Source of the DNA: Streptomyces sp. NBS 14/10
GTDB lineage: Bacteria; Actinomycetota; Actinomycetes; Streptomycetales; Streptomycetaceae
DNA length: 64,000 bases
Direction: 5' to 3'
Assembly (NCBI RefSeq): GCF_002224125.1
Contig: NZ_NCSM01000023.1
Coordinates: 1 to 64,000 of the forward strand
The position numbers and the translations under genes are program-made. The notes under the pieces are model-generated. The model was not told the origin of the DNA and ran no database searches. It saw nothing but the letters and a program-made list of their open reading frames with translations. This document shows positions 1 to 39,130 of this stretch, one piece after another (the stretch's first letter is position 1; the number at the start of each line of letters is the position of its first letter).

Positions 1-749
1 CCCCGCTGCCGCGCAAACTCCAGGAAAATGCGTGGGGTCGACATGACCGCCACTCCACCCGCCAGTGCCATGGAGCATTCCTCGGCCCGCAGTGCCTGGC
101 AGGCCAGATGCAACGCCACCAGCGACGACGAACACGCCGTGTCCACGGTGACCGCAGGCCCTTCCAAGCCCAGCGTGTAAGCGATTCGGCCCGAGGCGAT
201 GCTTCCCGCGCTGCCGGTGAGGATGAATCCCTCGGCGGACTCCGGGGGCCTTGAGGCGTGTCCGACGGGGTAGTCCGGTGGGTTGATGCCGGCGAACACG
301 GCGGTCCGGCTGCCGCGTACGGAGGTCGGGTCGATGCCGGCGTGCTCGAAAGCCTCCCAGGAGGTCTCCAGCAGCAGCCGCTGCTGCGGATCCATCGCCA
401 GCGCCTCACGGGGTGAGGTCTCGAAGAAGTCGGCGTCGAATCCGGCGGCGTCGTAGAGGAAGCCACCGTGTCGCGTGTAGCAGGTGCCGGATCGGTCCGG
501 GTTCGGGTCGTACAGCCGCTCGATGTCCCAGCCACGGTCGGTGGGGAAGTCCCCGATCGCGTCCCGCTCCGCCACGATCAGCTGCCAGAACTCCTCCGCG
601 GACCGTACCTCGCCCGGGAAGCGGCAGGCCATGCCGACAATGGCGATGGGTTCTTGCTCCCGCTCGGTGACCTCGTAAAGACGACGGCGAGTCCGGTCCA
701 GGTCCGCGGTCACTCGCTTCAGGTAGCTGAGGAGTTCGTCTTCGTGCAC
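1..749 (-). CDS. Type I modular polyketide synthase, N-terminal part (runs off left edge)
   Basis: The frame reads from about 749 down to base 1 without a stop, so only about 249 N-terminal residues are present. It opens with a short helical docking segment ([12 protein letters not shown], then an Arg-rich stretch) typical of actinobacterial PKS N-termini. A ketosynthase follows: [14 protein letters not shown], then [10 protein letters not shown], then the active-site [14 protein letters not shown] at about residue 200, so the nucleophilic Cys is intact. GTG 749 is chosen because it gives the usual docking-peptide length; an in-frame GTG at 785 is possible and neither has a strong ribosome site. 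It is separated from the PKS cluster at 17-37 kb by unrelated metabolic genes, so it probably belongs to another pathway to the left. Confidence 0.9.
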
Positions 750-9265: not shown

Positions 9266-9295
9266 GTGGACAAGGAGCACGTGGACAAGGAGCAC
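9266..9295 (+). repeat. 15-bp tandem duplication at the start of the CHAT gene
   Basis: GTGGACAAGGAGCAC occurs twice head to tail (9266-9280 and 9281-9295), encoding VDKEH twice. Both copies begin with GTG, so either could be the initiation codon; the first has the better-placed GGGGAG. Confidence 0.85.
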
Positions 9296-17443: not shown

Positions 17444-18316
17444 TCAGACGGCACGGATGCGGTGGATGAACTCGGCCAGGTCGGCTGTCGACGCGCTGCC
17501 TTTTGTGGTGCTGAAGTTGTTGACGAGCCGGATCAGGGCACCGTACGCCTCGGTGTGGTTGTAGGACACGGCGTCCGCGACCCGCAGTGACCACCGCCAG
17601 TATCCGTTGAGCGTGTCCGCCAGGGGCATACGGAAGGTGGAGAGCACGTCTTTGAGGTCCGGTATCGTCGCGCCGAGTCCGTGCCGTGTGATGTAGGCGG
17701 TGAGGATTTCGGTGTAGAACGCGAAGTGCCGGGCCTCGTCCCTGGCCAGTCGGTGGAGCAGTTCCCGCAGCACTGGTTCGGTAGCGACTGCCTTGAACCG
17801 CTGGTAGAAGAGTTGCGTGGCCTTCTCCTGGACCAGGGTGTAGGTGAACGCCTGGACCGGGCTCTCATAAGGCAGCGAGAACTTCTTTCTGCCTTCCTCG
17901 GCCAGCTCCCGGAGCAGTGTGTCCGGGTCGCTGATCCCGGCCTCGATTTGATATCTGGTCAGGGCCGAGGCGTGCCGCTCCTCCTCGTTCGCCCAGGAGA
18001 TCAGAAACCGGAAGTACTCGCGGTTGAAGCAGAACTCCTCGATGGCCAGGTCCTCACCGGACACCGGGAAGGCATCCAGGAAGTACGTGAGATACCCGGG
18101 AATGTGGTCCTCGATGAAGGTGATGAACCGTACGACCGAGCGGTCGGTCTCGGTGAGTTCTTCCGGCCGCAGCGTCGTCCAGGGCAGCTCGTCGATGGAC
18201 CAGTGGTGGGTATCGGCGCGGCTCACCGCCCTCCGGGTCAGCTTCCCGAGCTCCGCGGGGTCGAGGGCGCGCCGGAGCGGTTGCGGAGGGGATTCGGGCG
18301 GGGCGGTGTCACTCAT
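17444..18316 (-). CDS. Soluble acyl-ACP desaturase-like diiron protein (gene 6 of operon)
   Basis: 290 residues, all-helical. It carries the carboxylate/histidine ligands of the stearoyl-ACP desaturase (DesA) family: Glu in FIEDHIPG, EEERH at about 113, Glu in LVQEKATQLF and DEARH at about 195. Such enzymes use O2 and reduced ferredoxin to introduce double bonds into ACP-bound acyl chains. It is the last gene of a six-gene unit and overlaps the methyltransferase gene by 4 bp. With the upstream ACP and acyl-AMP ligase it probably acts on a dedicated fatty-acyl-ACP. The true outcome (alkene, alkyne or hydroxylation) cannot be read from sequence. Confidence 0.88.
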   Translation of the reverse strand: MSDTAPPESPPQPLRRALDPAELGKLTRRAVSRADTHHWSIDELPWTTLRPEELTETDRSVVRFITFIEDHIPGYLTYFLDAFPVSGEDLAIEEFCFNREYFRFLISWANEEERHASALTRYQIEAGISDPDTLLRELAEEGRKKFSLPYESPVQAFTYTLVQEKATQLFYQRFKAVATEPVLRELLHRLARDEARHFAFYTEILTAYITRHGLGATIPDLKDVLSTFRMPLADTLNGYWRWSLRVADAVSYNHTEAYGALIRLVNNFSTTKGSASTADLAEFIHRIRAV

Positions 18317-19182
18317 GGTGCCTCCGTCGGGCCCATCCGGGACTTCAGCGCGCTCAGCGCATAGTGCTTGGTGGTGTAGCCCCAGCCGGCGTTGGCCGTC
18401 CGGAGATAGCGGATCAGCGGCTCGCTCATGCCCGGTGCCGCCCGTTCGACGCGGTCGCGCTCGGCGTGGATCCGCTGTTCCCAGTCTTCGATGGTGCGGT
18501 GGTAGTGCGCGGTGAGATCCGAGAGCGCGGTGAGGCTGAACCCGGCCGACTCCACCGCTTCCACGAGCGTGGAGAGCGGCACCATATCGGCGAATCCGAA
18601 GATGTCCTCGGTGACGTGCTTGGTGCCCGGCCGCCGCGAGAACTCCTCGTAGGCGGCGTGGTTCCGGAAGCAGCTTTCCGACAGATACAGCGATCCGCCG
18701 CGGCGCAGCAGTTCGTGGACCTTGCGCAGCACCGCCGTCCGGTTCGGCATGTGCACGATCGAGCCGAGCATGGTGATCGCGTCATACGGGCCGGCCACCT
18801 CGATATCGCTGAAGGAGCCGTGCTCCAGCGTGATCAGGTCCGCCACGCCCGTTGCCTCCGCCTGGGCCCGGATGTACTCGAGCTGGGGGCGTGACGGTGT
18901 CACACCGGTGGCGTGGCAGCCGTACTCCTGGGCCATGAACAGGATCAGACTGCCCCAGCCGCAGCCGATGTCGAGCAGCCGCTCACCGCCGGTGAGGCCG
19001 AGTTGCCGCGCGACGAAGTGCAGTTTGTCGGTCTGTGCCTGATCGAGGTCGGTGTTCTGGTCGGTGTACAGCCCGGAGCTGTACTTGAGCCGCTGGTCGA
19101 GGTAGCCGGCGAACAGCTCAGCGGGCAGCTCGTAGTGCTGGTTGGTGGCCTGGTACGCCGCTTGGGGGGTCACGGTGGTCAT
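18313..19182 (-). CDS. Cyclopropane-fatty-acid-synthase-type SAM methyltransferase
   Basis: 289 residues. The SAM motif I is LLDIGCGWGS, preceded by the family signature HYELPAELF and LKYSSGLY and followed by GVTPSRPQ. This arrangement is shared by cyclopropane fatty acid synthases, mycolic acid cyclopropane synthases and some small-molecule C-methyltransferases. Next to two acyl-ACP desaturases, methyl transfer to a double bond (cyclopropane or methyl branch) on an ACP-bound chain is a good hypothesis. An O- or C-methyltransferase acting on another position is the alternative. ATG 19182 overlaps the ACP stop by 4 bp. Confidence 0.88.
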   Translation of the reverse strand: MTTVTPQAAYQATNQHYELPAELFAGYLDQRLKYSSGLYTDQNTDLDQAQTDKLHFVARQLGLTGGERLLDIGCGWGSLILFMAQEYGCHATGVTPSRPQLEYIRAQAEATGVADLITLEHGSFSDIEVAGPYDAITMLGSIVHMPNRTAVLRKVHELLRRGGSLYLSESCFRNHAAYEEFSRRPGTKHVTEDIFGFADMVPLSTLVEAVESAGFSLTALSDLTAHYHRTIEDWEQRIHAERDRVERAAPGMSEPLIRYLRTANAGWGYTTKHYALSALKSRMGPTEAP

Positions 19183-19484
19183 GGTGTCGTCAGTTCTCCG
19201 CTGACGTAGGTGTGCACCAGGGTGACCAGTTCCTCGACGGTGTCGGCGGCGAAGACGGCCTGGTCGTCGAACTCGATGTCCCACTGGCGCTCCAGTTTGG
19301 AGACCACCCGCAGCAGTTTCATCGAGTCGGCGCCGGGCAGTGCCTTGAGGGGGTCGGTGAGACCGATCTCGGCGGGGGAGACCTCCAGTTCGGAGGCGAG
19401 ATATTCGATGGTGATCGCGGCGATCTGCGCGCGGCTGGCGGGTTCGTGGGCGGTGGGCTCGTGGCCGGTGGGTTCGGCGGTCAT
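19179..19484 (-). CDS. Stand-alone acyl carrier protein
   Basis: 101 residues. The phosphopantetheine Ser is about residue 54 in PGADSMKLL, the ACP helix-II motif (with Asp before the Ser). The first 18 residues are a flexible extension (EPTGHEPTAHEP). It overlaps neighbours on both sides by 4 bp and lies between thioesterase and methyltransferase. It is therefore probably the carrier on which the acyl-AMP ligase loads a fatty acid and the desaturases and methyltransferase work, rather than the housekeeping fatty-acid ACP. Confidence 0.93.
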   Translation of the reverse strand: MTAEPTGHEPTAHEPASRAQIAAITIEYLASELEVSPAEIGLTDPLKALPGADSMKLLRVVSKLERQWDIEFDDQAVFAADTVEELVTLVHTYVSGELTTP

Positions 19485-20011
19485 GACTCTCCCGTACCGT
19501 GGTCGAAGTAGTGCTGGACGCGGCCGAAGGCGGCATCGTCGAGCTGCATGAGTTTCCTGGCTTGTTCGGAGCGGATCGGCTGGTAGGTGCCGGTGGCCAT
19601 GACGTGCAGTTCGCCGCCGGACCCGGTGATCTCGGCTTCGGTGTGCAGCACTCCGTTGCCCCGGCCGCTGATCCGCGCGACGGTCAGATACGGTTCGCCC
19701 ACCGCGAGCGGCAGCAGCATCTTGCTGCGCAGGGTCACGGAGAAGGCGAGCAGGCCGTGCACCAGGGCGAGGGTGTCACCCATCACCTCGTCCAGCAGCA
19801 CGTTCACGATGCCGCCGTGCACGATCCCGGGGTAGGAGGCGTAGTTCTCCGAGAATGTGGTCTCGGCGGCGTGGTCCCCGTTCGGCAGCCGCTTCAGACG
19901 CAGCTTGAGCCCGATGGGGTTGCGCGGCGAGCAACCGAAGCAGTTGAAGGAGGGCTCCGCGTGCCAGGGGAGTTCGATCGTCTCGTCGGCGGTGTGCTGT
20001 GCGGTGCTCAT
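19481..20011 (-). CDS. PaaI-like hotdog thioesterase
   Basis: 176 residues with a single hotdog fold. It shows the N-terminal NCFGCSPRNPIGL and the core GIVHGGIVNVLLDEVMG characteristic of PaaI/THEM4-type acyl thioesterases. It may release mis-loaded acyl groups from the operon's ACP or CoA, or hydrolyse the final acyl-ACP. In polyyne-type clusters a thioesterase accompanies the ligase, desaturases and ACP in the same way. 4-bp overlaps with both neighbours. Confidence 0.88.
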   Translation of the reverse strand: MSTAQHTADETIELPWHAEPSFNCFGCSPRNPIGLKLRLKRLPNGDHAAETTFSENYASYPGIVHGGIVNVLLDEVMGDTLALVHGLLAFSVTLRSKMLLPLAVGEPYLTVARISGRGNGVLHTEAEITGSGGELHVMATGTYQPIRSEQARKLMQLDDAAFGRVQHYFDHGTGES

Positions 20012-20874
20012 GCGGGGACCTTGCTGTTCAGCGACTCCTCGGCGATCGCCCGCCGCACATCGGACATCTTGGTCAGCTTGTGGCCGGTGAGCGCGGAGAA
20101 GTACTTGAACAGCTGCTCACAGCACTTCGCCCATTCTTTGCCGTCCTCGTCGACCTCGGCGAAGTAGGCGAACATCTCGTCGATGGTCTCGTGGTTCTCC
20201 AGCTCGGGCAGGTTTCCCTTGAACCGGCTGACCGGATGGCGGTACAAGTCGCGGGTGGTGCCCATGTAGATGTACAGGGTTTCCACGACCGAGGCGCATT
20301 CCTGTGGCCGTTCGGCCAGCTGTTGCGCGGTGTAGTGGACGAACTCGCGGGCGTGGCGGGCCTCGTCGCCGCTGGCCTTCTTCAGGATGGCCGCGAGAAC
20401 CGGCTCCTTCATGGTGCGGGCCACGCATTTGTACGCGTGGGTGGCAAGGACCTCGCAGATGACGTTGGTGGCCAGGGTGGCCGCCCGGGTGACTCCCGGT
20501 GGGTACGCCTCGCGCATCGAGGAGATCGTCCGGTGGTCGATGCCATGGCCCGCCAGCTGCAGCCAGGTCTGGAAGGCGAGATGGTGCTGGATCTCCTGAT
20601 AGCCCCAGATGCAGGCGAACTGCGAGAAGTCGTAGTCCATGGCGAACTCGTTGAGCAGGCCGTGGGTCGCGGCGATGACGTTCGACTCGCCCACGATGGC
20701 TCCCTTGGCGAACACGATGTGCTCGGGTAACACCAGATCGGGCCGGAACTCCTCCCATGGGATGTGGTGCAGCTCCCAGGTGGCGTGCTGATATTCGGCG
20801 AATATCCGGGCGCTGTGCATCCGGTCGTCCGCGAGCAGCGGGACCCCGGCCGGTGACTGTGTTCTGCTGTTCAC
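20008..20874 (-). CDS. Second ferritin-like diiron oxygenase/desaturase
   Basis: 288 residues. Four helices carry candidate iron ligands: Glu in GESNVIAA, YQEIQHH (ExxH), Glu in NVICEVLATHAYK and GDEARHAREF (ExxH). The spacing fits the soluble acyl-ACP desaturase/ferritin-like superfamily, but the sequence is distant from the companion at 17444. It may do a different reaction, such as a second desaturation, acetylenation or oxygenation. It overlaps the acyl-AMP ligase gene by 4 bp (20871-20874), so it is co-translated with it. Confidence 0.85.
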   Translation of the reverse strand: MNSRTQSPAGVPLLADDRMHSARIFAEYQHATWELHHIPWEEFRPDLVLPEHIVFAKGAIVGESNVIAATHGLLNEFAMDYDFSQFACIWGYQEIQHHLAFQTWLQLAGHGIDHRTISSMREAYPPGVTRAATLATNVICEVLATHAYKCVARTMKEPVLAAILKKASGDEARHAREFVHYTAQQLAERPQECASVVETLYIYMGTTRDLYRHPVSRFKGNLPELENHETIDEMFAYFAEVDEDGKEWAKCCEQLFKYFSALTGHKLTKMSDVRRAIAEESLNSKVPA

Positions 20875-22589
20875 ACCCGTTCTCCTCGGTCTGGACTTCC
20901 GGTGGCGGGGTACACCACCGCGCTGTCGCCGTCAGCGGCGGCCACCCGCCGCGCGGCCAGCACGCGCTGCCACTTTCCGCTGGTGGTGCGGGGGATCCAG
21001 CGGGGTTTGACCGCATAGACCCGCACCTGGGACAGGTCCAGCTCGGCCGCCACCCTTCTGCGGACCTCCGCGAGCACCGGGGCGGGGTCGGCATCGGTCT
21101 CCACGATGACGCCGATCCGCTCGCCACCCTCGGCATCGGTGTCGGAGAAGGCGACGCAGCGGTGGCGGTAGACGCCCGGCACGGTGCGCGCGACGTTCTC
21201 CACGTCGTCAGGGAAGAAGTTCTGCCCGTGCACCACGACCATTTCCTTGCGCCGCCCCGTGACGTACAGCTCGCCGTCGAGCAGGAAGCCGAGATCGCCG
21301 GTGCGCAGCCAGCCGTGGTCGAACACCTCGCGGGTCGCCTCGGGGGCGCGGAAGTAGCCGGTGGTCACCGGCTCCCCGGCGATCTGGATCTCGCCAAGCG
21401 TCCCGTCGGCCGCCACTGCCCCGTCGTCACCGACGATCCGCAGCTCGATGCCGTGCACCGCGCGGCCCACCGAAACCACAGGCTTGGCCGCGGGCGCTGC
21501 CTCGTCGACCGTGCGCGCGACACCGGTCGTGGCGAGCTCCTCGCGGTCCACCGTACGGATCTTCGGGGTGTCTCCGGGCGCGGGGTAACTGATCGACAAG
21601 GTGGCCTCGGCCATGCCGTACACCGGGTACATCACCGAGGGGCCGACGCCGCTGGGCGCCAGTGCCTCGGTGAACCGCCGCACGGTGGCCGAACTGACCG
21701 GTTCGGCGCCGTTGAACGCCAGCCGCCAGCTGGACAGGTCGAGCGCGGCAAGCCGCTCGGCCGGCACGCGGTCGACCAGATAGTCGTAGGAGAAGTTGGG
21801 CCCGGTCATCACCGTTCCGCGGTGTGTCGCGAAGTGTTCGAGCACCGTGCCCGGCCGCCGGAGAAAGGTGGTCGGCGAGAACGCGTGGACATCGGCCCCG
21901 TTGAGCCAGTGGGCCTGCAAACCGATCAGACCCATGTCGTGGAAGGTCGGCACCCACTGGACGAACACGTCGTCCGGGCTGAAGGCGCCCGAGACCACGC
22001 AGGCGCGCAGACCGGCCATGGTGGTGCGATGCGGCAGCATCACGCCCTTGGGCAGACTGGTGCTGCCGGAGGTGAACTGGACGATGGCCAGCGAGTCGGG
22101 ATCGACGGTGGGCAGCGTGAGCGGGCTGCCGGTGCCGCTCGGCGACGGCGGGGGCACAATGGCCACCCCGGTGGCCATTGTGGTGAGTTCGTGGCCGAGC
22201 TCGTCGTAGTCGGGATCCAGTACGAGGTGGCGCAGGCCAGCGACGTCCGCGATGCGCGCGAGGCGGTGCGCGGTGTCCCTCGGGTCACCGAAACCGGCCT
22301 GGACCGGCAGCACACTGATCGCCGCACCGGCCCGCCAGAGGCCGAAGAGCGTGGTGAAGAACCGGGCGGCGGTGGGCACCAGCACACCCACGATGTCACC
22401 GGGCCGCACTCCGGCGCGCAGAAACTCGTGCGCCGCGGCGGCGGAAGCGATATCGAGGTCTGCTGCGGTGATGTCGTCGCCTGCGGTGGGAAAATTCGCG
22501 CGGGAGTCCGGTGCGGCTTTCGCCAGCAGGGTCAGGCTTTCTCCCAGGGTCTGTCCGGCCAGTAAGGCAGGTCGCATGGATCGCTGCAC
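20871..22589 (-). CDS. Fatty acyl-AMP ligase (FAAL-type), first gene of operon
   Basis: 572 residues. The ANL adenylation motifs are present: FTSGSTSLPKGVML (phosphate loop), WVPTFHDMGLIG, YGMAEATLSISYP, and WLRTGDLGFLLDGELYVTG with GRRKEMVVVHGQNFFPDDVE. The HDMGLIG and MAEATL forms are typical of FAALs, which pass fatty acyl-adenylates to an ACP rather than CoA. GTG 22589 has AGGGGAA 5 nt upstream; ATG 22577 is an alternative. It heads the operon that includes the ACP at 19179, its probable partner, and is divergent from the PKS genes. Confidence 0.93.
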   Translation of the reverse strand: MQRSMRPALLAGQTLGESLTLLAKAAPDSRANFPTAGDDITAADLDIASAAAAHEFLRAGVRPGDIVGVLVPTAARFFTTLFGLWRAGAAISVLPVQAGFGDPRDTAHRLARIADVAGLRHLVLDPDYDELGHELTTMATGVAIVPPPSPSGTGSPLTLPTVDPDSLAIVQFTSGSTSLPKGVMLPHRTTMAGLRACVVSGAFSPDDVFVQWVPTFHDMGLIGLQAHWLNGADVHAFSPTTFLRRPGTVLEHFATHRGTVMTGPNFSYDYLVDRVPAERLAALDLSSWRLAFNGAEPVSSATVRRFTEALAPSGVGPSVMYPVYGMAEATLSISYPAPGDTPKIRTVDREELATTGVARTVDEAAPAAKPVVSVGRAVHGIELRIVGDDGAVAADGTLGEIQIAGEPVTTGYFRAPEATREVFDHGWLRTGDLGFLLDGELYVTGRRKEMVVVHGQNFFPDDVENVARTVPGVYRHRCVAFSDTDAEGGERIGVIVETDADPAPVLAEVRRRVAAELDLSQVRVYAVKPRWIPRTTSGKWQRVLAARRVAAADGDSAVVYPATGSPDRGERV

Positions 22590-22933
22590 ACTGATTCCCC
22601 TATCGCGGGTCGAAGACCAGATTCATGCATTCCGGACCCTTGATTGATAACGCTTTTGAGTCGGGCAATGACAGTTCTGGAGATCTCATCATGGCATGGC
22701 CGCGCGAGGCGCAGCGCCGCCGACGGGAATGACTAGGAGATCTGCTAAACACCCGCTCCACCGAGATGCTGGGCTTGGAAGCGCTTGACCGGAAAGGTTA
22801 GCCTGCGGATCTCGCCGCCTCTTCCTGGGAATGCCCCTGCTATTCGGCGGTATTCCCGTCGGCGATACATGTACGGCCTGCGTTCGGCACGATTCCGCCC
22901 GACGGTGAGACGGTGAACAGGACAGGTGGTTCC
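22590..22933. promoter_or_regulatory. Divergent promoter region between the FAAL operon and PKS genes
   Basis: About 340 bp without a gene. It must hold the promoters of both the minus-strand six-gene operon and the plus-strand PKS genes. It contains a perfect 13-bp inverted repeat (22718-22730 and 22852-22864), two direct copies of GGAGATCT (22679-22686 and 22736-22743) and an 8-bp palindrome TACATGTA (22866-22873). A TTGACC near 22787 could be a -35 element for the PKS genes. No pathway regulator gene lies in the cluster itself. Confidence 0.6.
22718..22864. repeat. Perfect 13-bp inverted repeat, 121 bp apart
   Basis: CGCCGACGGGAAT at 22718-22730 and its exact reverse complement at 22852-22864. 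A third GGGAAT-containing relative lies at about 22827. Placement in the divergent promoter region suggests a pair of binding sites for one regulator acting on both transcripts. Confidence 0.6.
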
Positions 22934-25900
22934 ATGCAGCCCGGAAGTACCGCACGCCTGACGCCAGTCGCGGTCATCGGCTTGGCCCCCTGCCTCCCGG
23001 GGGTTGCGCCGATCGAGGCGGCGCTGCGGGCGCTGGAGAACGCCGGCATCGTCCCGGAACGGCTCCGGGAGGCGGCGGCCGGTGTGTTCACCACCGAGCA
23101 GGCCGATCTGATCGCCGCCGAACTGGGCGTGGGCGGGCCCGCGTTGACGTGCGACACCCTCCCTGCCGGTGTGGTCCACCTGGCCTGCCAGAGCATTCAC
23201 ATGGGCGAGTCCGCGTTGGCGCTCGCCGGGGTCGCCGCACCGGAGGGCGGCAGCGGATTCCTCGTACTCAAGCCGGTTCCGGCCGCGGTGGCCGAAAGCG
23301 ACCCGATCCACTGTGTGATCAAGGGCAGCGCGCTGGGCCGGGGCGACGTCGTACAGCAGGCTTGTGCGCGCGCCCAGGTGGAAAGCGACCGGATCCAATT
23401 CTGGTGGCGGGGCGACTACCGGGCGGGCGACTACCACGCGGGCGAGGTCGCGTCGGACGGCCTGTCAGGCGGTGGCGGCGAGCCGGCCGGCCGGGGCGAG
23501 GGCGCGGTGGGCGCGGTGGCGGCGCTGCTGGAGATGCCCGTGCTGCTCTGTCGCGGCCGGGTTCCGGTCCCCGGCGCCCGGCCCGACCCCGAGCGCCGTC
23601 TCACCGCGGTCCACAGTTCCTCGGACGGCGCGGGCGTGGCCTGCGCGCTGGTGCTGTCGGAACCGCCCGCGCGCCCGTCGCCGTCGGCACGGACCGCGGT
23701 CCCGGCGCTGCCGTTGCTGCTGTCGGCGGGCAGCGAAGAGGCGCTGTGCGGCAAGGCGGAGAGCCTGCGCGTCCATCTGGCCGAGCCGGAGAGCCCGGAT
23801 CCGCTCGATGCCGCGCACACTCTGGCGGTCGCCAGGCCGCATCTGCCGTATCGCGCGGTGGTCGTCGGCGTCGACCGCGCGGAGCTCGCGGACGGGCTCG
23901 GCGAACTCGCCCTGGGCCGGGGCGGCGCGGGGAAGGCCGACGGTGGGCGCAGGGTCGCCTTCCTCTTTCCCGGCGAGGGCGGGCAGCGGCCGGGCATGGG
24001 GCGGGAGCTGTACCCGCTGTTCGATGTGTTCGCCGACGCGCTCGACGAGGTGTGCGCCCATATGGACGCGGTCGCCACCTGGTCAGTGCGTGATCTGCTC
24101 CTCGGTACGGGCAACGCCACCGAGGTCGCCCCGGCCGATGAGGCGCTGTACACCCAGGACGCGCTGTTCGCCCTTCAGGTGGCGCTGTTCCGGCAGTTCG
24201 AGCACTGGGGCGTACGCCCGGACTTCGTGGCCGGGCACTCGGTCGGGGAACTGGCCGCGGCGACGGCGGCCGGGGTGTTCCCGCTGCCCGACGTATGCGC
24301 GCTGCTCGCCGAGCGGATTCGGCTGTTCCGGGAGAAGACACCGGTCGGCGGCGCGATGGTCGCGATGCGGATCTCCGAGGCCGAGGCCCTGGAATCGCTG
24401 GCCGGGCTTGAGCATCTGGCCGGTATCTCCGCTGTGAACGCCCCGAACTCCGTCGTCGTCTCCGGGGATCGCGAAACCGTGCTGCGGATCGCCGGAGGGT
24501 GGGCGGAGCGGGGACGCAAGGTGAAACAGCTGCCGGTCGACCGGGCTTTCCACTCGCCGCATATGGCCGCGATGGCCGGCGACTTCGAGCAATTCGTCCG
24601 CGGCCTCGCCCCGCGACCGCCGCGCATTCCGATTGTTCCGGTGCACAACGCGCTGGGATCAGATCCCGGTGTCGTCCACCTGCCCGAATATTGGGGGGCG
24701 CAGGTGCGCGGCACCGGGCATTTTCTTCACTGCGTGACCAGCCTCGACGCGGCGGGCGTCGACACCTATGTGGACATGAGCGCGAACGGTGTGCTGGCGG
24801 CGCTGGTCGAGGAGACTCTGCCCGAGTCTTCCGCCGCGAACGCGCATATCACCGCCGCGCTGCACGGCGGCGGGTCCGATCTGCGCGCCGTGCTCGGCAC
24901 ACTGGGCGGGTTGCACACCCACGGTGTCCCGGTGGACTGGCCCGCCGTGTTCCGCGGCTGGGGCGGCCGGCGCATCCATCTGCCGACCGGCGTGGCACGG
25001 CCCTCCCGTACGGCATCCGCCGTATCCCGGTCGACGGAACTGCGGCGGGTGATCAGGACCGAGACCGAGGCGATGATCGAGGGCGGCTACGGGCCGGACC
25101 GGTCGTTCCTGGAACTCGGGCTCGACTCCCTCGCCGCCGTGCAGCTGGTGAACCGACTGCGGAAGCGGACCGGGCTGAAGATCGCCACAGCCGCGCTCTT
25201 CGACCACCCGACCCCGAACCAGCTGGCGGCCCACCTGGAGAACCGCACACCCCGGCCGGTGGCCGCCCGCCCCCGCCGGACCGGCCCGGACGAGCCGATC
25301 GCCATCACCGCGATGAGCTGCCGGTTTCCGGCCGGGGTGCGATCGCCGGAGGACCTGTGGCGGCTGCTCGCCGAAGGCCGTGAGGTCATATCGCCGATGC
25401 CGGAGGACCGCGGCTGGGACCTGGCCGGGCTGTACGACCCGGATCGCAAACGTCCGGGCACCAGCTATGTGCGCCACGGCGGATTTCTCCACGACGCCGC
25501 CGAGTTCGATCCCGCCTTCTTCGGCATCGGCGGACACGAGGCACTGGAGATGGACCCGCAGCAGCGGCTGCTGCTCGAACTGACCTGGGAGGCGTGTGAA
25601 CGGGCCGGTATCGACCCGGCCACCCTCCGCGGCAGCGACACCGGGGTGTACGCCGGGCTGTCATACGGCCACTACGGCACCGGCCCCGGGTACGCGGACA
25701 TCTGTCTGCGACCGCATCTGGCGATCGGCACCGGGGCCAGCACGGCCTCCGGCCGGATCTCGTACACCTTCGGGCTGAACGGGCCCAATCTCGCCGTCGA
25801 CACGGCGTGTTCCTCGTCGCTGGTCGGGCTGCATCTCGCCGCAGCCGCGCTGCGCCGCGGCGAGTGTTCGCTGGCGCTGGCGGGCGCGGTGACCGTGCTG

Positions 25901-28900: not shown

Positions 28901-29734
28901 CTCGCGGGTGAGCTCGAGGCGTTCGTGTTGTTCTCCTCCGCCACCGGCGCGGTCGGCAACGCGGGTCAGGCCAACTACGCGGCGGCCAACACCTACCTCG
29001 ACGCGCTCGCCGAACAACGCCGCGCCGATGGACTCGCGGCCACGTCGATGGCCTGGGGGCCATGGGGGGCCGGTGGCATGGCGGTGGACGGGACCGACGC
29101 GCAGATCGTGGGCACCCGGCTGCGCCGCAACGGCATGACGGTGCTCGACCCGGACCTGGCGATCGACCTACTGGCCCGGGCCTACGAACACGACGAATCC
29201 GGGCTCGTCATCGCGGACATCGACTGGACGCGCTTCCTCTCGACGCTCGCCGCCACCCGTAACAGCCCGCTGTTCACGGACCTGCCCGAGGCCCAGCAGA
29301 GCAAGGCCGCCCCGCCGCCCGCGGAGATCTCCGCGCTGGTACGGCGGCTCGCCGGGATGCCGCGGGTCGAGTGCGTCCGTACGCTGCGCGATCTGGTGTG
29401 CCAGAACACCGCGCAGCTGCTCGGGCACGACTCGGCCGCGCAGATCCAGCCCGCGAAACCCTTCCATGAGCAGGGGCTCAGCTCGCTGGGCATCGTCGAA
29501 CTGCGCAACCAGCTCAGCGCGCAGACCGGACTGCGGATGCCCGCCAGTGTGCTGTTCGACCATCCCACCCCCTCCGCGCTGGCCGGCCACCTCGCCACGG
29601 AGCTCGCCCCGGACACCGTTCCACCCCACCGCACACCGCCGGAGGCGGAGCCCGGGACGACCGATCTCGAGGCCATCCTGAGCCTCGCCGAACAGGAACT
29701 CTCCCGGGCCGGGGAGGACCGCCACAATGGCTGA
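22934..29734 (+). CDS. Type I PKS: loading region (vestigial KS-AT-ACP) and module 1 (KS-AT-KR-ACP)
   Basis: About 2266 residues. Residues about 10-250 are a shrunken ketosynthase-like region. AT follows (about 340-680; GHSVGE, and RAFHSPHM, a malonyl-type motif), then ACP (LGLDSLAAV, about 730). Module 1 has KS with [14 protein letters not shown] (about 960), HGTGT and [10 protein letters not shown] with GHSLGG and HAFHSALM (malonyl); KR with TGAFGALG (about 1880), VLDD (B-type) and intact Ser/Tyr; and ACP ([10 protein letters not shown], about 2185, with Asp before the Ser replaced by Ser). ATG 22934 has AGGTGG 5 nt upstream; GTG 22913 is an alternative. Its end overlaps the second PKS gene by 8 bp. 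Predicted output is a beta-hydroxy intermediate. Confidence 0.93.
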
Positions 29735-32700
29735 CGACAGGCTCCTCGACACCGTGCAGCGCCTGACCACCGCGCTGCGGGACACCCGGGAACGGCTGCG
29801 CGTGGCCGAGGCCGGCGCCCACGAACCGATCGCCATCGTGGGCGCCGGCTGCCGGTTCCCCGGCGGAGTGAGCGACCCGGAAGGGCTGTGGCGGCTGGTC
29901 GGCGAGGGCCGGGACGCCGTCACGCCCTTTCCCACCGACCGCGGCTGGCCGGACGAGTTCACCGGGGCGGGGGCGTTTCTGACCGACCCGGCCTGGTTCG
30001 ACGCGGGCTTCTTCGGCATCGGCCCGCGGGAGGCCCTGTCGATGGATCCACAACAGCGGCTGATGCTGGAAATTTCCTGGGAAGCGGTGGAGCGGGCCGG
30101 AATCGACCCGCTGTCCCTGCGCGGCTCCCGGACCGGAGTGTTCACCGGCACCAACGACCAGGACTACCGTGGCCTGCTGGGCAAGGTCAGCAACCACAAC
30201 GAACACGCCGACCACCTGGCCACCGGCACCGCGGCCAGCGTGCTGTCCGGGCGAGTCGCCTACTTCCTCGGACTGGAGGGCCCGTCGGCCACGGTCGACA
30301 CCGCATGCTCGTCCTCGCTGGTGGCGTTGCATCTGGCCGTCCGCTCGCTGCGCTCGGGGGAGTGCGACCTCGCGCTGGCCGGCGGTGTCGTCGTACTGTC
30401 CACGCCCGGACTGTTCGCCGCCTTCCGGCGCCAGGGCGCGCTCGCCGCGGACGGCCGCTGCAAGGCGTTCGCCGAGGCTGCGGACGGTGTGGGCTGGGGC
30501 GAGGGCGCCGGGGTCGTACTCGTCGAGCGGCTGACCGACGCCCTCGCCCACGGACACCCGGTGCTGGCCGTGGTGCGGGGCACCGCGATCAACTCCGACG
30601 GCGCCTCCAACGGGCTGACCGCGCCGAACGGGCTCGCACAGCAGCGGGTCATCCGCGACGCGCTGGCCGACGCCGGGCTGCGCGGCCGGGACGTGGACGC
30701 CGTCGAGGCGCATGGCACGGGGACGCGGCTCGGCGATCCGATCGAGGCGTCGGCGTTGCAGGCGGCGTACGGTGGCGACCGGGAAACCCCACTGGCGATC
30801 GGGTCGGTGAAGTCGAACATCGGGCACACCCAAGCCGCCGCCGGTATCGCCGGGGTGCTGAAGACCGTACTGGCGCTGCGGAACCGGACCCTGCCGAAGA
30901 CGCTGCATGTGGACACCCCGTCGTCGCAGGTGGACTGGGACTTGGGCGCGGTGGAACCGCTCACCGAAAGCCGCCACTGGCCGGCCGGCCCGGGCCGCCC
31001 CCGGCGCGCGGGAGTGTCCGCGTTCGGCATCAGTGGCACCAACGCCCATGTGATCCTCGAAGAGGCGCCACCCGCCGAAGCGACACCGGCCGCCCAAGTG
31101 CAGCCGCTGCCATGGGTGCTCTCGGCACGTACCGACTCCGCGCTCCGTGCCAAGGCGGGACAGCTGCTCTCGTATGCCGACGGCAGGGACGCGGCGGGCG
31201 TCGCCTACGCGCTGGCCACCTCCCGCAGCACATTCGAGCGCCGTGCCGTGGTGCTCGATACGGATCCCCGGGCCGGCCTGACCGCGTTGAGCCGCGGCGG
31301 GACCGCGCCTGGCCTGATCACCGGCACCGCCGACCTGACCGGCAAAGTGGTGTTCGTCTTCCCCGGCCAGGGCGGCCAGTGGGCGGGAATGGCCGGTGAC
31401 CTGCTGGAGACATCGCCGGTGTTCCGGGAACACATCCACCGTTGCGCCCAGGCGCTGGCGCCGCATGTCGACTGGGACCTGTCGGCCGTGCTGCGGCAGC
31501 GGCCGGACGCGCCCTCGCTGGAGCGGGTGGACGTCGTGCAGCCGGCGCTGTTCGCGATCATGGTCGCGCTCGCCGCCCTCTGGCGCTCCTGCGGTATCGA
31601 GCCGGATGCCGTGGTGGGGCACAGCCAGGGGGAGATCGCCGCCGCCCATGTGGCCGGTGCGCTGTCCCTCCAGGACGCCGCGCTGGTGGTGGCCCGGCGC
31701 GCCAAGGCGCTGACCCGGCTGTCCGGCAGCGGCGGGATGGCTTCGGTGGAGCTGTCGGCGGACGAACTGTGGCCCCGGCTGGACGACAAGCTGTGCATCG
31801 CGACGGTCAACGGGCCGAGGGCGACGGTGGTCGCCGGAGACACCGACGCGCTCGACGTACTGCTGGCGGACTTGGCCGAATCCGGCATACGGGTACGGAA
31901 GCTGCCGGTGGACTACGCGTCCCATTCGCCCGAGATGGAGATCGTCCGCGACCGCGTCCTCACCGAGCTGGCGCCCATCTCGCCGAAGGCCACGGACATC
32001 CCCTTCCACTCGGCGGTGACCGGCGCCGTACTCGCCGGGACGGAGCTCGACGCCGGGTACTGGTACCGGAATCTGCGCCTTCCGGTGCGGTTCGACCAGG
32101 CCATCGCCGGGCTCGCGGCGCCGGAACACTCGTTCTTCGTGGAGGTCGGCCCGCACCCCGTACTGGGCCCGGCGGTCCTGGAGGCCGTCGGCGACAAGGC
32201 CGTGGTCGTCGGATCGCTGCGCCGCGGGGAGGATGGCCGCAGGGCGCTGCTCTCCTCGCTCGCCGAACTGTACGTCCGCGGTCTGTGTCCTGATTGGACG
32301 GCATGGGCGGGGCCGGACACACCCGGATTCACCGAACTGCCCACCTATCCGTTCGAACGCAAGCGGTTCTGGCTGACACCGGGTGAGTCCAGGAGGGCTG
32401 ACCATCCCGTGCTGGATCCGGCGGTCGAGCTGGCACAGAGCGATGAGCTGGTGTTGACCGGACGTCTGTCGACGGAGTCGACTCCGTGGCTGGCCGACCA
32501 CCGTGTACTGGACGAGGTGATCCTGCCCGGCACCGCGTGGCTCGAATTCGCGCTGCACGCGGGCGCCGCGGCGAACTGCGCCACGGTCGAGGAACTGACC
32601 CTGGCGGTGCCGCTGGTCCTGCCGGACGAGGGGGCCGCCACGGTGCAGCTGCGCGTCGGCGCACCCGATGGCACCGGGCGGCGCAGACTGGACCTCCATG

Positions 32701-35588
32701 CGAAAGTGGACGGCGCGGGCTGGGTGCGGCACGGCGAAGGCGTGCTGAGCCCGGCACCCGCCGAGCCCGAAGCGCTGGAGACGTGGCCGCCCGCCGACGC
32801 GGAAGTGGTCCCGCACACCGGGCTCTACCCCGCGCTGATCGGCCACGGGCTGGGCTACGGCCCCACGTTCCAGGGGCTGCGCACCGTATGGCTCCGCGGT
32901 GACGAGGTCTTCTGCGAGGTGGCCTGCCCGGTGGACACCCACGGCTTCGTGGTCCATCCGGCGCTCCTCGACTCCGCTCTGCACGCTCTCGGCTTCAGCG
33001 CCCCGGCGGGTGGCGAGGCCGGGGCGGCCGGCGGACCGGTGCTGCCGTTCACCTGGACCGGTGTCACCGCGCATGCGGTTGGGCCCTCGGCGCTACGGGT
33101 GCGGCTGTGCGGATCCGTCGACGACGGGGTGCGGCTGACCGTGACCGACAGCGAGGGCGCGCCGGTGCTGTCGGTGGACTCGCTGGTGCTGCGCCCGGCG
33201 GCCGTACGCGGCGGCGCCCCGCGAGACGCGCTGTTCCGGAACAGATGGGTCGAGGTGCGCCCTTCGGGCGGGCTCGCGGCGGAAACCATGGTGGCCGTGG
33301 GCTTCGAGCCCGGGCACTTCCCGGTTTTCCCCGATCTCGCGGCGCTGGAGGAGGCGGTCCGCGCGGGTCTGCCGGTGCCGGGCGCGGTGCTCGTCGCCGG
33401 CTCCCACGGCTCGGTCAGGGAATCCGCACACCGCGCACTGGGGCTGGTCCAATGGTGGTGCGCGCGCCCGGAGTTCGCGGCGTCCCGGCTGGTGTTCGTG
33501 ACCTCGGGCGCGGTGGCGGCCAGGACCGGCGACGACGTCCCCGACCTGGCGGGCGCGGCCGTCATCGGCCTGGTGCGGTCGGCACAGACCGAGGAACCCG
33601 GCCGGTTCGTCCTGCTGGACGCCGATGAGATCACCCCGCAGACGATCACCGCCGCCCTGGCCGCCGATGAACCCGAGGTCGCCCTGCGGGGCGGGCAGGT
33701 GCTGGCGCGCCGCCTGGTGCGGGTCGTCCCCCGGGCTCCCGGAACGTTCGCCGGGCCCGAGGACACCGTTCTGATCACCGGCGGTACCGGCACCCTCGGC
33801 CGGCTGCTGGCCCGCCACCTGGTCACCGCGCACGGGGTGCGGCGGCTGGTCCTGGCCGGCCGCCGGGGTCAGGCACCAGGACTGCGGGACGAGCTCGGCG
33901 CACTGGGCGCCACCGTCACGGTGGTCGCCTGCGACGTCGCGGACCGGACGCAACTGGCCCAACTGCTCGGCGCACACCGGCCGACGGTCGTCGTCCACGC
34001 GGCCGGGGTGCTCGACGACGGCGTGGTGACGGCCATGAACGAGGACCGCGTCGACGCCGTCCTGCGGCCGAAGGCCGAGGCCGCGCTCGCCCTGCACGAG
34101 CTGACCCAGGACCTGCCACTGACGTCGTTCGTGCTGTTCTCGTCGGCCGCCGCCACCGCGGGCAGTCCCGGCCAGTCCAACTACGCCGCCGCCAACGCCG
34201 TACTCGACGCGCTGGCACACCACCGGCGCGCGCGAGGGCTGCCCGCGGTCTCGCTCGCCTGGGGCCTGTGGCAGGAACGCAGCGATATGACCCGCCATCT
34301 CGACTCGACCGCCACCCCACCGTCCACCGCCGACTCACTGTCCACCGAGGAGGCACTGGCGCTCTTCGACGCCGCGGCCGCGCTCGCCGACCCGGTGCTC
34401 GTACCCGCCCGGCTCGATCTGCGCGGCCGTCAGGTCAGGCCGCTGCTACGGGAGCTGGTGAACCGGCCGGAGATCCCGGAGGACAATCCGCGTCAGCTGC
34501 TCGACCGCCTGGACGAACCGGAGCGCGAACAGGCGCTGCTCGACCTGGTGCTGGACAAGGTCGCGTTGGTCCTCGGGCACGACGGCACGGACGAGCTCAG
34601 ACCGCATGCCGGGTTCCTGGAGATGGGCGTGGACTCACTGGCCGCCGTGCACATCCGCAACCACCTCAGCCAGGCCCTCGACGTACGGCTGCGGGCGACC
34701 GTCACCTTCGACCATCCGACCCCGCCGGCGCTGGTCCGGCATCTGACGGAGGTGCTTGCCCGGCCGGAGGGCGAACCGGCCCCCGAGGAGCACGGCGAGA
34801 CCGTCGACGAGCTGATCGCCCGGACCAGGGCCACCGCCTGGGCGCGGACGCGCAGCTACTTCACCTCGCCGGCCGAGCTGCCGCGGATCCCACGACCGAC
34901 CCGGCTGGCCGGTGGCCCGGAGGGGCCGGCGCTGGTGTGTGTCACGTCGGCCGTCGGCACATCGGATCCGGTGCAGTACGCGCGTCTGGCGAAGCCGTTC
35001 CAGGGCGAGCGGGACGTCTGGGCACTGCGGCAACCGGGATTCCACCGCGGCGACCCGCTCCCCAAGTCCCCGGAAGCGCTGCTCGAGACGCACGCCGCCA
35101 GTCTGCGCGCCGAGTTGGGGGAGCGGTCCTACGTGCTCGCCGGTCTGTCCTCCGGCGGCCTGATCGCCCATATGCTCGCCCGGTACCTCTACGACCAGGG
35201 CGCCCCGCCCGCCGGTGTCATCCTGCTGGACAGCTATGCCCCCGGCGAGGACCAACGGCTCGCCCTGCTGGCCCCCGGCCTGCGGGGGGAACTCCAGCAC
35301 CGGGCCGACGACCCGGACTCCGCGGTGCCCAGCGACGACAGCTGGGTCACCGCCATGCTGCACTACGAGACATTCGACTGGCCGTTCAACGAGCTGCCGG
35401 CCCCGGCGCTGTTCGTACGCGCGGGGGAGCCGCTGGAGAGCTGGCCGGCGGACTGGGACTGGCAACCCGTCTGGCCGTACGACCACACCGCCGTCATCAC
35501 CCGCGGCAACCACTTCACCATGCTGGAGGAATACGCCCCGCATACGGCCGCCCTGATGCGCGACTGGATGCGGGACACCTTCGGCTGA
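29727..35588 (+). CDS. Type I PKS: module 2 with thioesterase (KS-AT-DH-KR-ACP-TE)
   Basis: 1953 residues. An N-terminal coiled-coil docking helix ([19 protein letters not shown]) precedes KS (about 33-445; [27 protein letters not shown]). AT (about 540-840) has GHSQGE and YASHSPEM, a methylmalonyl-type motif. DH (about 895-1150) has [14 protein letters not shown] and the Asp in [10 protein letters not shown], so His and Asp are present but the usual motif Gly is Asp. KR (about 1345-1560) has [12 protein letters not shown] and intact Ser/Tyr. ACP Ser is about 1635 (GVDSLAAVH). TE (about 1710-1953) has GLSSGG, an Asp in LLDSY and a His in GNHFTM. ATG 29727 has GGGGAGGA 8 nt upstream. It probably ends the assembly line, yielding an alpha-methyl, alpha,beta-unsaturated acid or lactone. 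Confidence 0.94.
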
Positions 35589-35603
35589 GACCGGCGAGCC
35601 GCG

Positions 35604-36806
35604 TCAGCGCACCAGATGGAGCGGCAGCTCCCGCAGACCGCGAAAGCTGACGTTCGGTCGCCAGACCAGGTCGTCGCCGGTGAGCTCGATCGTGGCATAG
35701 CGCCGTAGCAACTCCGTCAGCACCATCGAGGTCTCCAGCTTCCCCAGCGCGGCACCGATGCAGTAGTGCGGTCCACCGCTGAAGGCCAGCGTTTTCACTC
35801 CGGTGCGGGTCAGGTCGAGGCGGTCGGGATCGGGATAGCGCTCAGGGTCACGGCCGGCCGCCCCGAAAAGCAGCATCACCTTGGCGCCCGCGGGGAGGGT
35901 GACCTCTGCCAAGGGGACATCTTCGTTCAGGAGCCTGGAGACGATCTGCACGGGAGGGTCGTATCGAGTGATCTCATCGATCGAGTCGGTGATGATTTCC
36001 GGGTTGTCGCGCAGCATCCGCAGCTGGTCGGGATGGCGGAGCAGCGCCAGGAGGCCGTTTCCGATCAGATTGACCGTGGTCTCATGGCCTGCGACGAACA
36101 AGAACTGAACATTGGCGATGATCTCTTCCTCGGTCAGCCGCCCGCCATCGACCTCGGCGTGCAGAAGGAGGGAGAGAATATCGTCTCGCGGTGCTGACCT
36201 GCGCTCTTTGAGATGGTCGGCGACGTACTCGCGAAATTCCACTTCCGCCGCGTTCATCTCGACCGCGTCCTCGGCGGTTATCGAGGGGTCGATCACTCGG
36301 CTGATTTGTTCCGTCCAGCGGCGGCACTGGTCTCGATCACTCCCGGGTAAACCGAGAAGTTCGCAGGTCACAGTCACCGGAAGGGGCAGGGCGAGACTGT
36401 GGATGAGATCCGTCTTACCTTCGCCCACGGCGTCGAGCAGCCGGGCGGTCTCGGCGGCTATACGCGGCCGTAGCCGTTCCACTGAGGCCCGGGTGAAAAC
36501 CTTGCTGATCGCGCCTCGGATCCGTCGATGGGCGGGGCCGTCGAGCATGAGCATCCATTTTCGTACGCTCTGCACGAGAGGACTGTCCGGACCACCGCGG
36601 CGGTTGGCCCAGGTCCGGTCCCGATAGAATTCGCTCGACGCTCCCGGTGCGCGCAGTACGGCATCCACATCGGCGTAGCGCGAAAGAACCCAATAGCCGA
36701 AGTGTGATTGATGGAGGGGGTCTGTGTCGCGCAGGCGTCGATAGATGGGATAGGGGTCGGTGCGGACCGATGGATCTCGCGGATCGAAAATTATGGTCAT
36801 TTCCAT
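35604..36806 (-). CDS. Cytochrome P450
   Basis: 400 residues, normal for soluble bacterial P450s. It has the I-helix oxygen-binding motif FVAGHETT, the ExxR of helix K in DEITRYDPP, and the heme loop FSGGPHYCIG with the Cys ligand at about 349. ATG 36806 has GAGG 6 nt upstream and starts MEMTIIFDPRDP, a typical N-terminus; ATG 36800 is possible. It converges on the PKS genes with only 15 bp between. A tailoring oxidation of the PKS product is the simplest role. Redox partners are not encoded nearby. Confidence 0.95.
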   Translation of the reverse strand: MEMTIIFDPRDPSVRTDPYPIYRRLRDTDPLHQSHFGYWVLSRYADVDAVLRAPGASSEFYRDRTWANRRGGPDSPLVQSVRKWMLMLDGPAHRRIRGAISKVFTRASVERLRPRIAAETARLLDAVGEGKTDLIHSLALPLPVTVTCELLGLPGSDRDQCRRWTEQISRVIDPSITAEDAVEMNAAEVEFREYVADHLKERRSAPRDDILSLLLHAEVDGGRLTEEEIIANVQFLFVAGHETTVNLIGNGLLALLRHPDQLRMLRDNPEIITDSIDEITRYDPPVQIVSRLLNEDVPLAEVTLPAGAKVMLLFGAAGRDPERYPDPDRLDLTRTGVKTLAFSGGPHYCIGAALGKLETSMVLTELLRRYATIELTGDDLVWRPNVSFRGLRELPLHLVR

Positions 36807-38872: not shown

Positions 38873-39020
38873 GCCGGGGCACCGATTCGGCCGCCCAGGA
38901 ATGAAACGGCTGGTGGTCGCTGTTGCGGCGAGAGCCGCCGCCCCGGCGAAGTGTCGGCGCAAGCCCGGCGGGCACGGCCGCCGGACATGTCGGACACTTG
39001 GATTACGACGCGAGGTAGAA

Positions 39021-39128
39021 GTGAGCACCGTCCTGACAGAGCTGCCGAACAACCGGAAGAAGGCCCTCGACGGCCACCGCGCCGACGATATGGCCATGCC
39101 GTCCGGGCAGGGCGCGGTGCGCGGCTGA
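39021..39128 (+). CDS. Possible 35-residue leader peptide upstream of the nhaA fusion gene
   Basis: GTG 39021 has GAGG 5 nt upstream and starts a 35-codon frame (STVLTELPNNRKKALDG...) whose TGA ends 2 bp before the NhaA ATG at 39131. The nhaA gene itself shows no good ribosome site, so its translation may depend on ribosomes finishing this frame. No homology is recognised. It could also be chance or the remnant of a larger gene. The rest of the 258-bp gap (38873-39020) holds an 8-bp GACATGTC palindrome and nothing else clear. Confidence 0.4.
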   Translation: MSTVLTELPNNRKKALDGHRADDMAMPSGQGAVRG

Positions 39129-39130
39129 TC

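Follow-up and report, generated by a model that had tools for sequence, protein, structure and literature searches.

A conserved acyl carrier operon with two soluble diiron proteins, joined to a two-module polyketide synthase in Streptomyces sp. NBS 14/10, as a candidate fatty-acid editing pathway

The window analysed here, a stretch of 64,000 nucleotides from Streptomyces sp. NBS 14/10 (contig NZ_NCSM01000023.1, positions 1 to 64,000), carries between positions 17,444 and 36,806 a cluster of nine genes that includes a fatty acyl-AMP (adenosine monophosphate) ligase, or FAAL. Six of the nine lie on the minus strand and encode, in order of transcription, the FAAL itself (20871..22589), the ferritin-like diiron protein D2 (20008..20874), which serves as marker of the cassette, a PaaI/THEM-like hot-dog thioesterase (TE; 19481..20011), a stand-alone acyl carrier protein (ACP; 19179..19484), a CMAS-family methyltransferase without the full bicarbonate site (MT; 18313..19182), and the acyl-ACP desaturase-like, ferritin-fold diiron protein D1 (17444..18316). 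Two polyketide synthase (PKS) genes, PKS1 (22913..29734) and PKS2 (29727..35588), are read divergently on the plus strand, and next to them lies a cytochrome P450 gene on the minus strand (35604..36806), which most likely starts at 36806. This layout of six overlapping genes, two divergent PKS genes and a P450 had been described in an earlier note on this DNA, and both the coordinates and the overlaps were confirmed. At all five junctions from FAAL to D1 the neighbouring genes share exactly 4 nt, one overlap reading GTGA and the other four ATGA, and because each neighbouring pair does so, the six genes probably form one translationally coupled operon. The region between the divergent operons (22590..22912, assigned to neither strand) probably holds the putative promoters of both.

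FAAL matches the AMP-binding family PF00501, and its top solved relative, 3pbk, is labelled a fatty acyl-adenylate ligase and aligns to residues 45-553 of the query with an expectation value (E) of 8e-67, so that the protein is closest to solved FAALs across nearly its whole chain. Its five best solved relatives are 3pbk, three entries labelled polyketide synthase, and saframycin synthetase B, with FadD32, FadD23, and FadD28 ranking below them; the four entries named after other enzymes we take to be FAALs themselves. The ACP matches PF00550 (E 3.1e-10) and shows a DSM serine site in its translation. Fatty acid activation by this FAAL and ACP, as proposed earlier, is in agreement with these matches. 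TE has no Pfam match and resembles PA5202 (E 5.9e-5 against sequences of the Protein Data Bank, PDB) and THEM2 weakly, and its HGG and DE residues are invariant in 78 sequences.

D1 scores 59.7 bits against PF03405 (cut-off 22.7), and its nearest solved protein is DesA2 (E 5.9e-9, PDB sequences). With this family match it combines the six diiron ligands expected of a soluble acyl-ACP desaturase (E69, E112, H115, E164, E194, and H197), arranged in the E/ExxH/E/ExxH pattern that it shares with DesA2 and the plant stearoyl-ACP desaturase. Five ligands are invariant in 80/80 rows of the alignment, from which L020 was dropped by a length filter, and the sixth is Glu in 78/80, the exceptions (L066 and L069) being cross-matches to D2 from loci whose contig ends after MT. 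D1 is 96% identical to a protein named from S. bingchenggensis; it differs from typical soluble acyl-ACP desaturases in the height of its score, as another desaturase of the same genome reaches 241 bits against PF03405. D2, in turn, has no Pfam match above cut-off (Ferritin_2 appears only below threshold and PF03405 does not match), and a search of 5.8 billion proteins returned 68 homologues, a small and largely unclassified family; for some of its members, matches to AurF (PF11583) or rubrerythrin had been precomputed. The six ligands of the diiron site of D2 again follow the pattern E/ExxH/E/ExxH and are invariant in 81/81 rows, and the protein is 97-98% identical to D2 of Streptomyces milbemycinicus. 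Since the D2 profile also gives, in 9 of 12 genomes, weak matches to the D1 encoded in the same cassette (E 8.1e-7 to 2.9e-4), we regard D1 and D2 as distant relatives; other weak matches of the profile are bacterioferritin, an R2-like oxidase, and DesA2. No membrane-desaturase Pfam match was obtained among the nine proteins at E 0.001, and the previous assignment of both enzymes to the ferritin-like diiron proteins, rather than to the membrane desaturases, thus stands.

MT belongs to PF02353 (CMAS; 151.2 bits, cut-off 27, E 4.5e-44), and the two solved proteins closest to it in sequence are cyclopropane synthases. It shares with the cyclopropane fatty acid (CFA) and cyclopropane mycolic acid synthases the Pfam family, the S-adenosylmethionine site, and a Tyr of the bicarbonate site, and differs from them in the absence of the Glu and His of that site. 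These positions were assigned by reading an alignment of 80 MT members (79 loci plus the window; the truncated L066 was excluded) against the canonical CFA synthase of the same genome (L099). In E. coli numbering the bicarbonate ligands are Glu239, His266, and Tyr317 (PMC11387697); conservation of these ligands and a need for bicarbonate in ring closure have been described (PMC11387697, PMC9821293, PMC3132707). In MT, the Glu position is occupied by Val (67/80) or Ile (13/80) and never by Glu, the His position by Ser in 80/80 and never by His, and the Cys position by Ser (60), Ala (19), or Cys (1), whereas L099 retains Glu, His, and Cys; the Tyr is kept in 80/80. As there are plant enzymes in which Gln replaces the His and Ser the Cys (PMC3132707), loss of the Glu is the stronger argument. 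For an anammox methyltransferase lacking the bicarbonate site the same conclusion, no cyclopropanation, was drawn (PMC9821293). Because both Glu and His are lost, MT is expected to methylate its substrate without forming a cyclopropane, and cyclopropanation by the usual mechanism was dropped as the default assumption. The cyclopropanation considered earlier is accordingly not supported, both residues being replaced in all 80 family members, the window included.

PKS1 begins with a shortened ketosynthase (KS)-like stretch (about residues 15-255) that, according to Pfam, orthologue alignment, and motifs, lacks the active-site Cys and both His motifs and is followed by an acyltransferase (AT) and an ACP; EAHGTGT and N[IL]GHT each occur once in PKS1, both within the subsequent KS1. 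A decarboxylating KSQ-type loader was therefore rejected for this fragment, which keeps neither Cys nor His motifs. Identity to nine close relatives is 52-88% over the KS fragment and 82-96% over the loading AT, which argues that the AT-ACP loader is maintained. The loading AT shows GHSVG, an Arg within an AER[IV]RL stretch, and RAFH, all kept in the nine relatives; the Arg is presumably the carboxylate-binding one of AT motifs, and the domain is predicted to be malonyl-type. Judged from a reading of the orthologue alignment, the true start of PKS1 is probably ATG 22934 and not GTG 22913. The KS fragment is absent from PKS1 in L010-L012, and in two of these loci stand-alone KAS III and FabF-like genes lie between P450 and FAAL (L011 5761-8266, L012 5806-8272), which may replace the missing ketosynthase in trans. 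Following the loader, PKS1 carries a KS-AT-KR-ACP module with a malonyl-type AT (HAFH) and a ketoreductase (KR), and PKS2 a KS-AT-DH-KR-ACP-TE module with a methylmalonyl-type AT (YASH), dehydratase (DH), KR, and thioesterase. Every catalytic motif sought in the two modules was found. At one position of its DH motif, usually Gly, PKS2 has Asp, as does L089 and unlike L090. PKS2 orthologues are 74-96% identical in 8 of 10 genomes searched, and 53% and 55% identical in the other two. The domain content supports one hydroxyl and one alpha-methyl enoyl unit, and the motifs agree with the module assignment made previously (malonyl with KR, then methylmalonyl with KR, DH, and a terminal TE). That parts list had all nine genes right, but it passed over the dead KS fragment and the AT-ACP loader. 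The P450 matches PF00067 (E 1.2e-30) and contains AGHET and FSGGPHYCIG motifs.

Conservation of the cassette was assessed in the best 80 of 97 D2-profile relatives in named genomes, a set in which D2 is present by construction and in which, counted from the list, 33 loci carry the label Nocardia. FAAL, ACP, and MT accompany D2 in 80/80 loci, the ACP being recognised by similarity in 53 and by its carrier motif only in 27, always between D2 and MT. The five large genes are collinear in 75/80 loci (the contigs of L066 and L069 stop short of D1), and this recurrence of gene order excludes a chance arrangement; their distance matrices are correlated as well (Spearman 0.85-0.92; 75 rows, window included). 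A P450 is present in 64 of the 67 loci with at least 8 kb on either side of D2, a figure to be read without a background P450 rate. Sixty-one of these were detected by tblastn inside the locus and three (L001, L004, L009) just past PKS2, while L031, L035, and L024, the latter with a weak partial match only, remained without one; in L002, L003, and L005 there is a second P450. Among further genes near the cassette are a second hot-dog protein (34/80), an oxidoreductase of the flavin adenine dinucleotide (FAD) type (30/80), and a phosphopantetheinyl transferase (9/80).

The modular PKS pair, in contrast, lies within 10 kb in only 12/80 loci, and the idea that the cassette is a universal PKS starter device was therefore discarded. 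In a midpoint-rooted tree of four joined genes (78 rows, shown without support values), the window falls into a single clade with the PKS-bearing loci L001-L012, beside Streptomyces loci without the PKS pair (L013-L017). D2 of the window is 88-92% identical to that of L002-L009 (Kutzneria, Acrocarpospora, Amycolatopsis, and Streptomyces) and only 58-60% identical to that of Streptomyces L013-L017. Being closer to proteins of other genera than to these congeners, it suggests that the nine-gene cluster probably moved between genera. Ten flanking stretches past PKS2, from ten genomes, have only the PKS and P450 genes in common among PKS-type loci, except for the closest strain (L081), which shares that flank with the window; on the other side of the cassette only generic groups recur (c24 in L004 and L005, c58 in L006 and L010). 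Genes that belong to a second cluster, encoding an AMP ligase, an FAD enzyme, a GDSL hydrolase, or a PfaA-type KS, occur within 10 kb in 20/80 loci, two or more of them in 7/80. Six loci were read further. PfaA-like genes appear at a distance of about 8-20 kb from D2 in five of them (G011, G012, G013, G016, and G018), and the sixth (G015) was followed to one side only; of three proteins tested, two score above the cut-off for PfaA and one above that for PfaD. These PfaA/PfaD genes were located in Amycolatopsis and Nocardia (L091 523-6906, L094 6052-13218, L095 5311-6879). Such genes of the PfaA/PfaD polyunsaturated fatty acid (PUFA) synthases are absent from the window cluster. In L018, PKS1 matches lie far from the cassette, among the matches listed, and a nonribosomal peptide synthetase about 17 kb away, and in L016 a dissimilar PKS lies about 14 kb from the cassette.

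Further occurrences of D2 were sought in an even draw of 394 genomes from the window's class, 31 of which contain it at E 1e-40 or better, 29 of them being Frankiaceae. The family was recognised through one of its genomes (G306), whose match positions and scores equal those of the genome of L033, Parafrankia colletiae. Among all 35 Frankiaceae genomes analysed, D2 was found in 29, and among the 27 complete ones in 24, although one of the 29 (G346) holds just two fragments of it at the ends of contigs; the window's genus has D2 in 6/295 genomes, three of these matches being distant forms. Across ten short Frankiaceae stretches, FAAL adjoins D2 in all ten, ACP and MT are each present in nine, and TE in six; in G110 (L122), the D2 gene is read divergently from the five others. 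A weaker class of D2 (about 300-316 bits) is found in 17/35 Frankiaceae genomes, and in four such loci examined D2 is accompanied by ACP in all, TE in three, and D1 in one. Small stand-alone D2-TE-ACP loci of Frankiaceae are L123 15692-18557, with D1, and L126 7690-9522, FAAL and MT not being seen in the stretch read. Of the three distant matches in the window's genus, two were read, and both show an MFS (major facilitator superfamily) gene, D2, TE, ACP, FAAL, and a DUF6125 gene in this order (L132 6930-12775, L133 6770-12624), forming a distant sister of the cassette. D2 and ACP are hence the constant pair of the loci read, usually with TE, and D1, MT, FAAL, P450, and the synthases vary. Residence of the cassette on plasmids was rejected, because just four weak matches (24-26% identity), all on proteobacterial plasmids, were obtained; of the two viewed, one is annotated and lacks the cassette and the other carries no annotation. 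On a Methylibium plasmid (L135 7276-9828), a 26%-identical D2 relative lies beside an iron-containing redox enzyme and crotonase-family genes.

By annotation, the flanks of the cluster in the window are unrelated to it, with genes for an amidase and for a GH67 glucuronidase to one side and, to the other, genes for a DJ-1/PfpI-domain protein and for an NhaA-thioredoxin fusion. The latter (38951-41011, 686 aa) joins an NhaA Na+/H+ antiporter to a DsbA/thioredoxin domain. Elsewhere in the window, a protein of 1258 aa (9266-13042) has a C-terminal CHAT domain and otherwise no Pfam match, and the contig begins within a minus-strand ketosynthase (window 1-653; C44:3-653), so that a PKS gene was cut by the assembly. 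Another modular PKS lies beyond the window at about C44:85-115 kb, and the host genome of 12.1 Mb gives 126 ketosynthase-family matches.

Taken together, we favour, at a probability of roughly 0.55, the interpretation that the six-gene operon and the P450 constitute a self-contained pathway for editing a carrier-bound fatty acid, which in this genome is joined to a two-module PKS. The gene identities, the operon, the catalytic residues, the loss of the bicarbonate site, the PKS domain order, and the conservation across genera are read directly from the DNA, and in support of the proposal we count the invariant ligands of D1 and D2, the relatives of FAAL, the gene overlaps, the co-occurrence of the genes, their correlated distances, the distant kinship of D2 with the D1 of its own cassette, the P450 and, in 9/80 loci, the phosphopantetheinyl transferase near the cassette, and the D2-TE-ACP-FAAL order in the two distant loci. 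We infer the substrate, the order of steps, the chemistry of D2, the transfer to the PKS, and the product as follows. FAAL would adenylate a free fatty acid and load it onto the dedicated ACP, where D1 would introduce a double bond. MT would methylate the activated chain but close no cyclopropane ring, so that a methyl branch or a methylene results, and D2 would oxidise the same ACP-bound chain again, most simply in a second desaturation. The hot-dog TE would release or proof-read the acyl group, and the P450 would hydroxylate. In clusters of the PKS type the edited group would most simply be passed to the PKS, a priming by fatty acyl that appears plausible, to be extended by one malonyl unit, whose hydroxyl would be kept, and one methylmalonyl unit, which would become an alpha-methyl enoyl; the thioesterase of PKS2 would then release a chain of the 5-hydroxy-2-methyl-2-enoic acid type. 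With a PKS pair in 12/80 loci and PfaA-type genes near five of the six read further, the cassette looks like an acyl-ACP editing pathway of its own that is adopted by PKS clusters only sometimes.

Several observations weigh against this interpretation. The AT-ACP loader that PKS1 itself carries, with its malonyl-type AT, argues against simple priming. Against DesA2, D2 reaches an E of only 0.24 by phmmer and 0.0056 by profile, and among PDB sequences its profile scores better with a designed helix bundle (E 2.8e-8), with a bacterioferritin (E 0.00064), and with an R2-like oxidase (E 0.0049); it thus seems too distant from solved desaturases for its chemistry to be fixed, with oxygenation, C-C cleavage, or halogenation also possible. 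Neither FAAL nor MT was found in the four weaker-class Frankiaceae loci, within the stretch read, and no ferredoxin or reductase was found by Pfam among the nine genes. TE was not found in 3/80 loci, all from Frankia (L031, L035, L048), nor at its usual place in 4 of the 10 short Frankiaceae stretches, and therefore appears dispensable in some loci.

The logic of FAAL, ACP, oxidising enzymes, and release is already known from other pathways, and it is the set of enzymes that is new. Desaturases of alkyne and polyyne pathways are known as membrane proteins. As in jamABC and the caryoynencin, cepacin, and protegencin clusters, a FAAL would load a dedicated ACP on whose chain desaturases act; the polyyne clusters likewise hold a thioesterase, and in jamaicamide biosynthesis the acyl group can feed a PKS. 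The window also has the FAAL and stand-alone ACP that such clusters require. It differs in having two soluble ferritin-like proteins and a CMAS-family methyltransferase, and the polyyne clusters have a rubredoxin. Desaturases of the JamB kind, of which alkynes take one and polyynes three (PMC8406139), were not found among the nine proteins (Pfam, E 0.001), nor was a rubredoxin among the nine genes or 20 flanking genes scanned. Membership in the polyynes was rejected on these grounds, and the comparison drawn previously holds as an analogy only. That soluble enzymes have here taken the place of the membrane desaturases in a true polyyne or terminal-alkyne pathway would fit the joint presence of FAAL, ACP, two desaturase-like enzymes, thioesterase, and P450, and a polyyne subclade of 10 actinobacterial genomes with a P450 instead of thioesterase and rubredoxin has been reported (PMC8406139); with membrane desaturase and rubredoxin missing from the nine genes, and a conserved methyltransferase without a role in such logic, we consider it very improbable. 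Hardly more credible is a fatty acyl starter that is both desaturated and cyclopropanated before the two PKS modules extend it. The CMAS family, the top two solved relatives, and the retained Tyr would speak for it, but ring formation is reported to need bicarbonate and its ligands (PMC9821293, PMC11387697), and in MT the Glu and His are replaced throughout and the Cys in 79/80, whereas L099 of the same genome keeps all three. MT also matches 7v6h (E 6.1e-9), which we infer to be AmxMT1 of anammox bacteria. AmxMT1 resembles MT in being proposed to act on ACP-bound chains and in lacking the bicarbonate site, and differs in its proposed place in type II fatty acid synthase gene clusters of the ladderane type; a His-Glu dyad is described for AmxMT1 (PMC9821293). 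Biotin-analogue pathways were set aside, because the gene sets described in the available part of PMC13336041 use other enzymes.

Two further alternatives were weighed. The PKS might prime itself through its AT-ACP loader, the acid of the cassette being joined later or ending up in a distinct, co-regulated product. This would account for a conserved and apparently maintained loading AT ahead of module 1, for a thioesterase within the cassette, and for the 68/80 loci without such a PKS within 10 kb. Nevertheless, a KS fragment devoid of the Cys and of both His motifs is not expected to turn malonyl into acetyl by decarboxylation, an acyltransferase for later joining was not among the nine genes (Pfam), and PKS and cassette have been kept together in nine species, with only the P450 common to the clusters past PKS2, the closest strain excepted; we thus hold self-priming to be unlikely. 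Somewhat less doubtful, though still on the unlikely side, is that D2, rather than desaturating the acyl-ACP, oxygenates it, cleaves one of its C-C bonds, or halogenates it in the manner of CylC. It lacks a PF03405 match, some of its homologues carry the AurF or rubrerythrin matches mentioned above, and in cyanobacteria FAAL and ACP genes adjoin halogenases of the CylC type (PMC8406957); its complete ligand set and its placement by profile as a distant relative of D1 favour a desaturase. The CylC-type clusters (cylindrocyclophane, columbamide, and microginin) resemble the window in that their FAAL and ACP genes lie next to those for a type I PKS and a dimetal-carboxylate enzyme (PMC8406957). 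They differ in that this enzyme, CylC, is a halogenase, and the part of PMC8406957 available mentions neither a CMAS methyltransferase nor a second desaturase-like gene in the type I PKS clusters.

A described product had not been recognised for this gene set, and we found no description of it, of its product, or of the chemistry of D2 in the literature searched, most subscription papers and the MIBiG clusters lying outside that search; in the main text of a 2025 FAAL review, as far as it was available, the terms ferritin, diiron, and cyclopropan do not occur. Beyond the editing pathway proposed for the window, we tentatively suggest, at somewhat less than even odds, that D2 and ACP, usually with TE, form the core of an acyl-ACP chemistry not described so far, nearly universal among Frankiaceae and common in Nocardia, which would make a methyl-branched, oxidised fatty acid of physiological function and would have been borrowed by PKS and PUFA-synthase clusters, D2 representing a new diiron catalytic family. 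The cassette offers two soluble diiron enzymes and a methyltransferase that are expected to work on a carrier-bound chain, and D2 could serve as a marker for tracing the product by strain comparison. Since its genes stay linked in Streptomyces, Nocardia, and Frankia alike, and nearly all loci of sufficient length have a P450 nearby, the cassette likely makes something useful, and the frequency of D2 among Frankiaceae genomes makes a role in these plant-associated actinobacteria worth testing.

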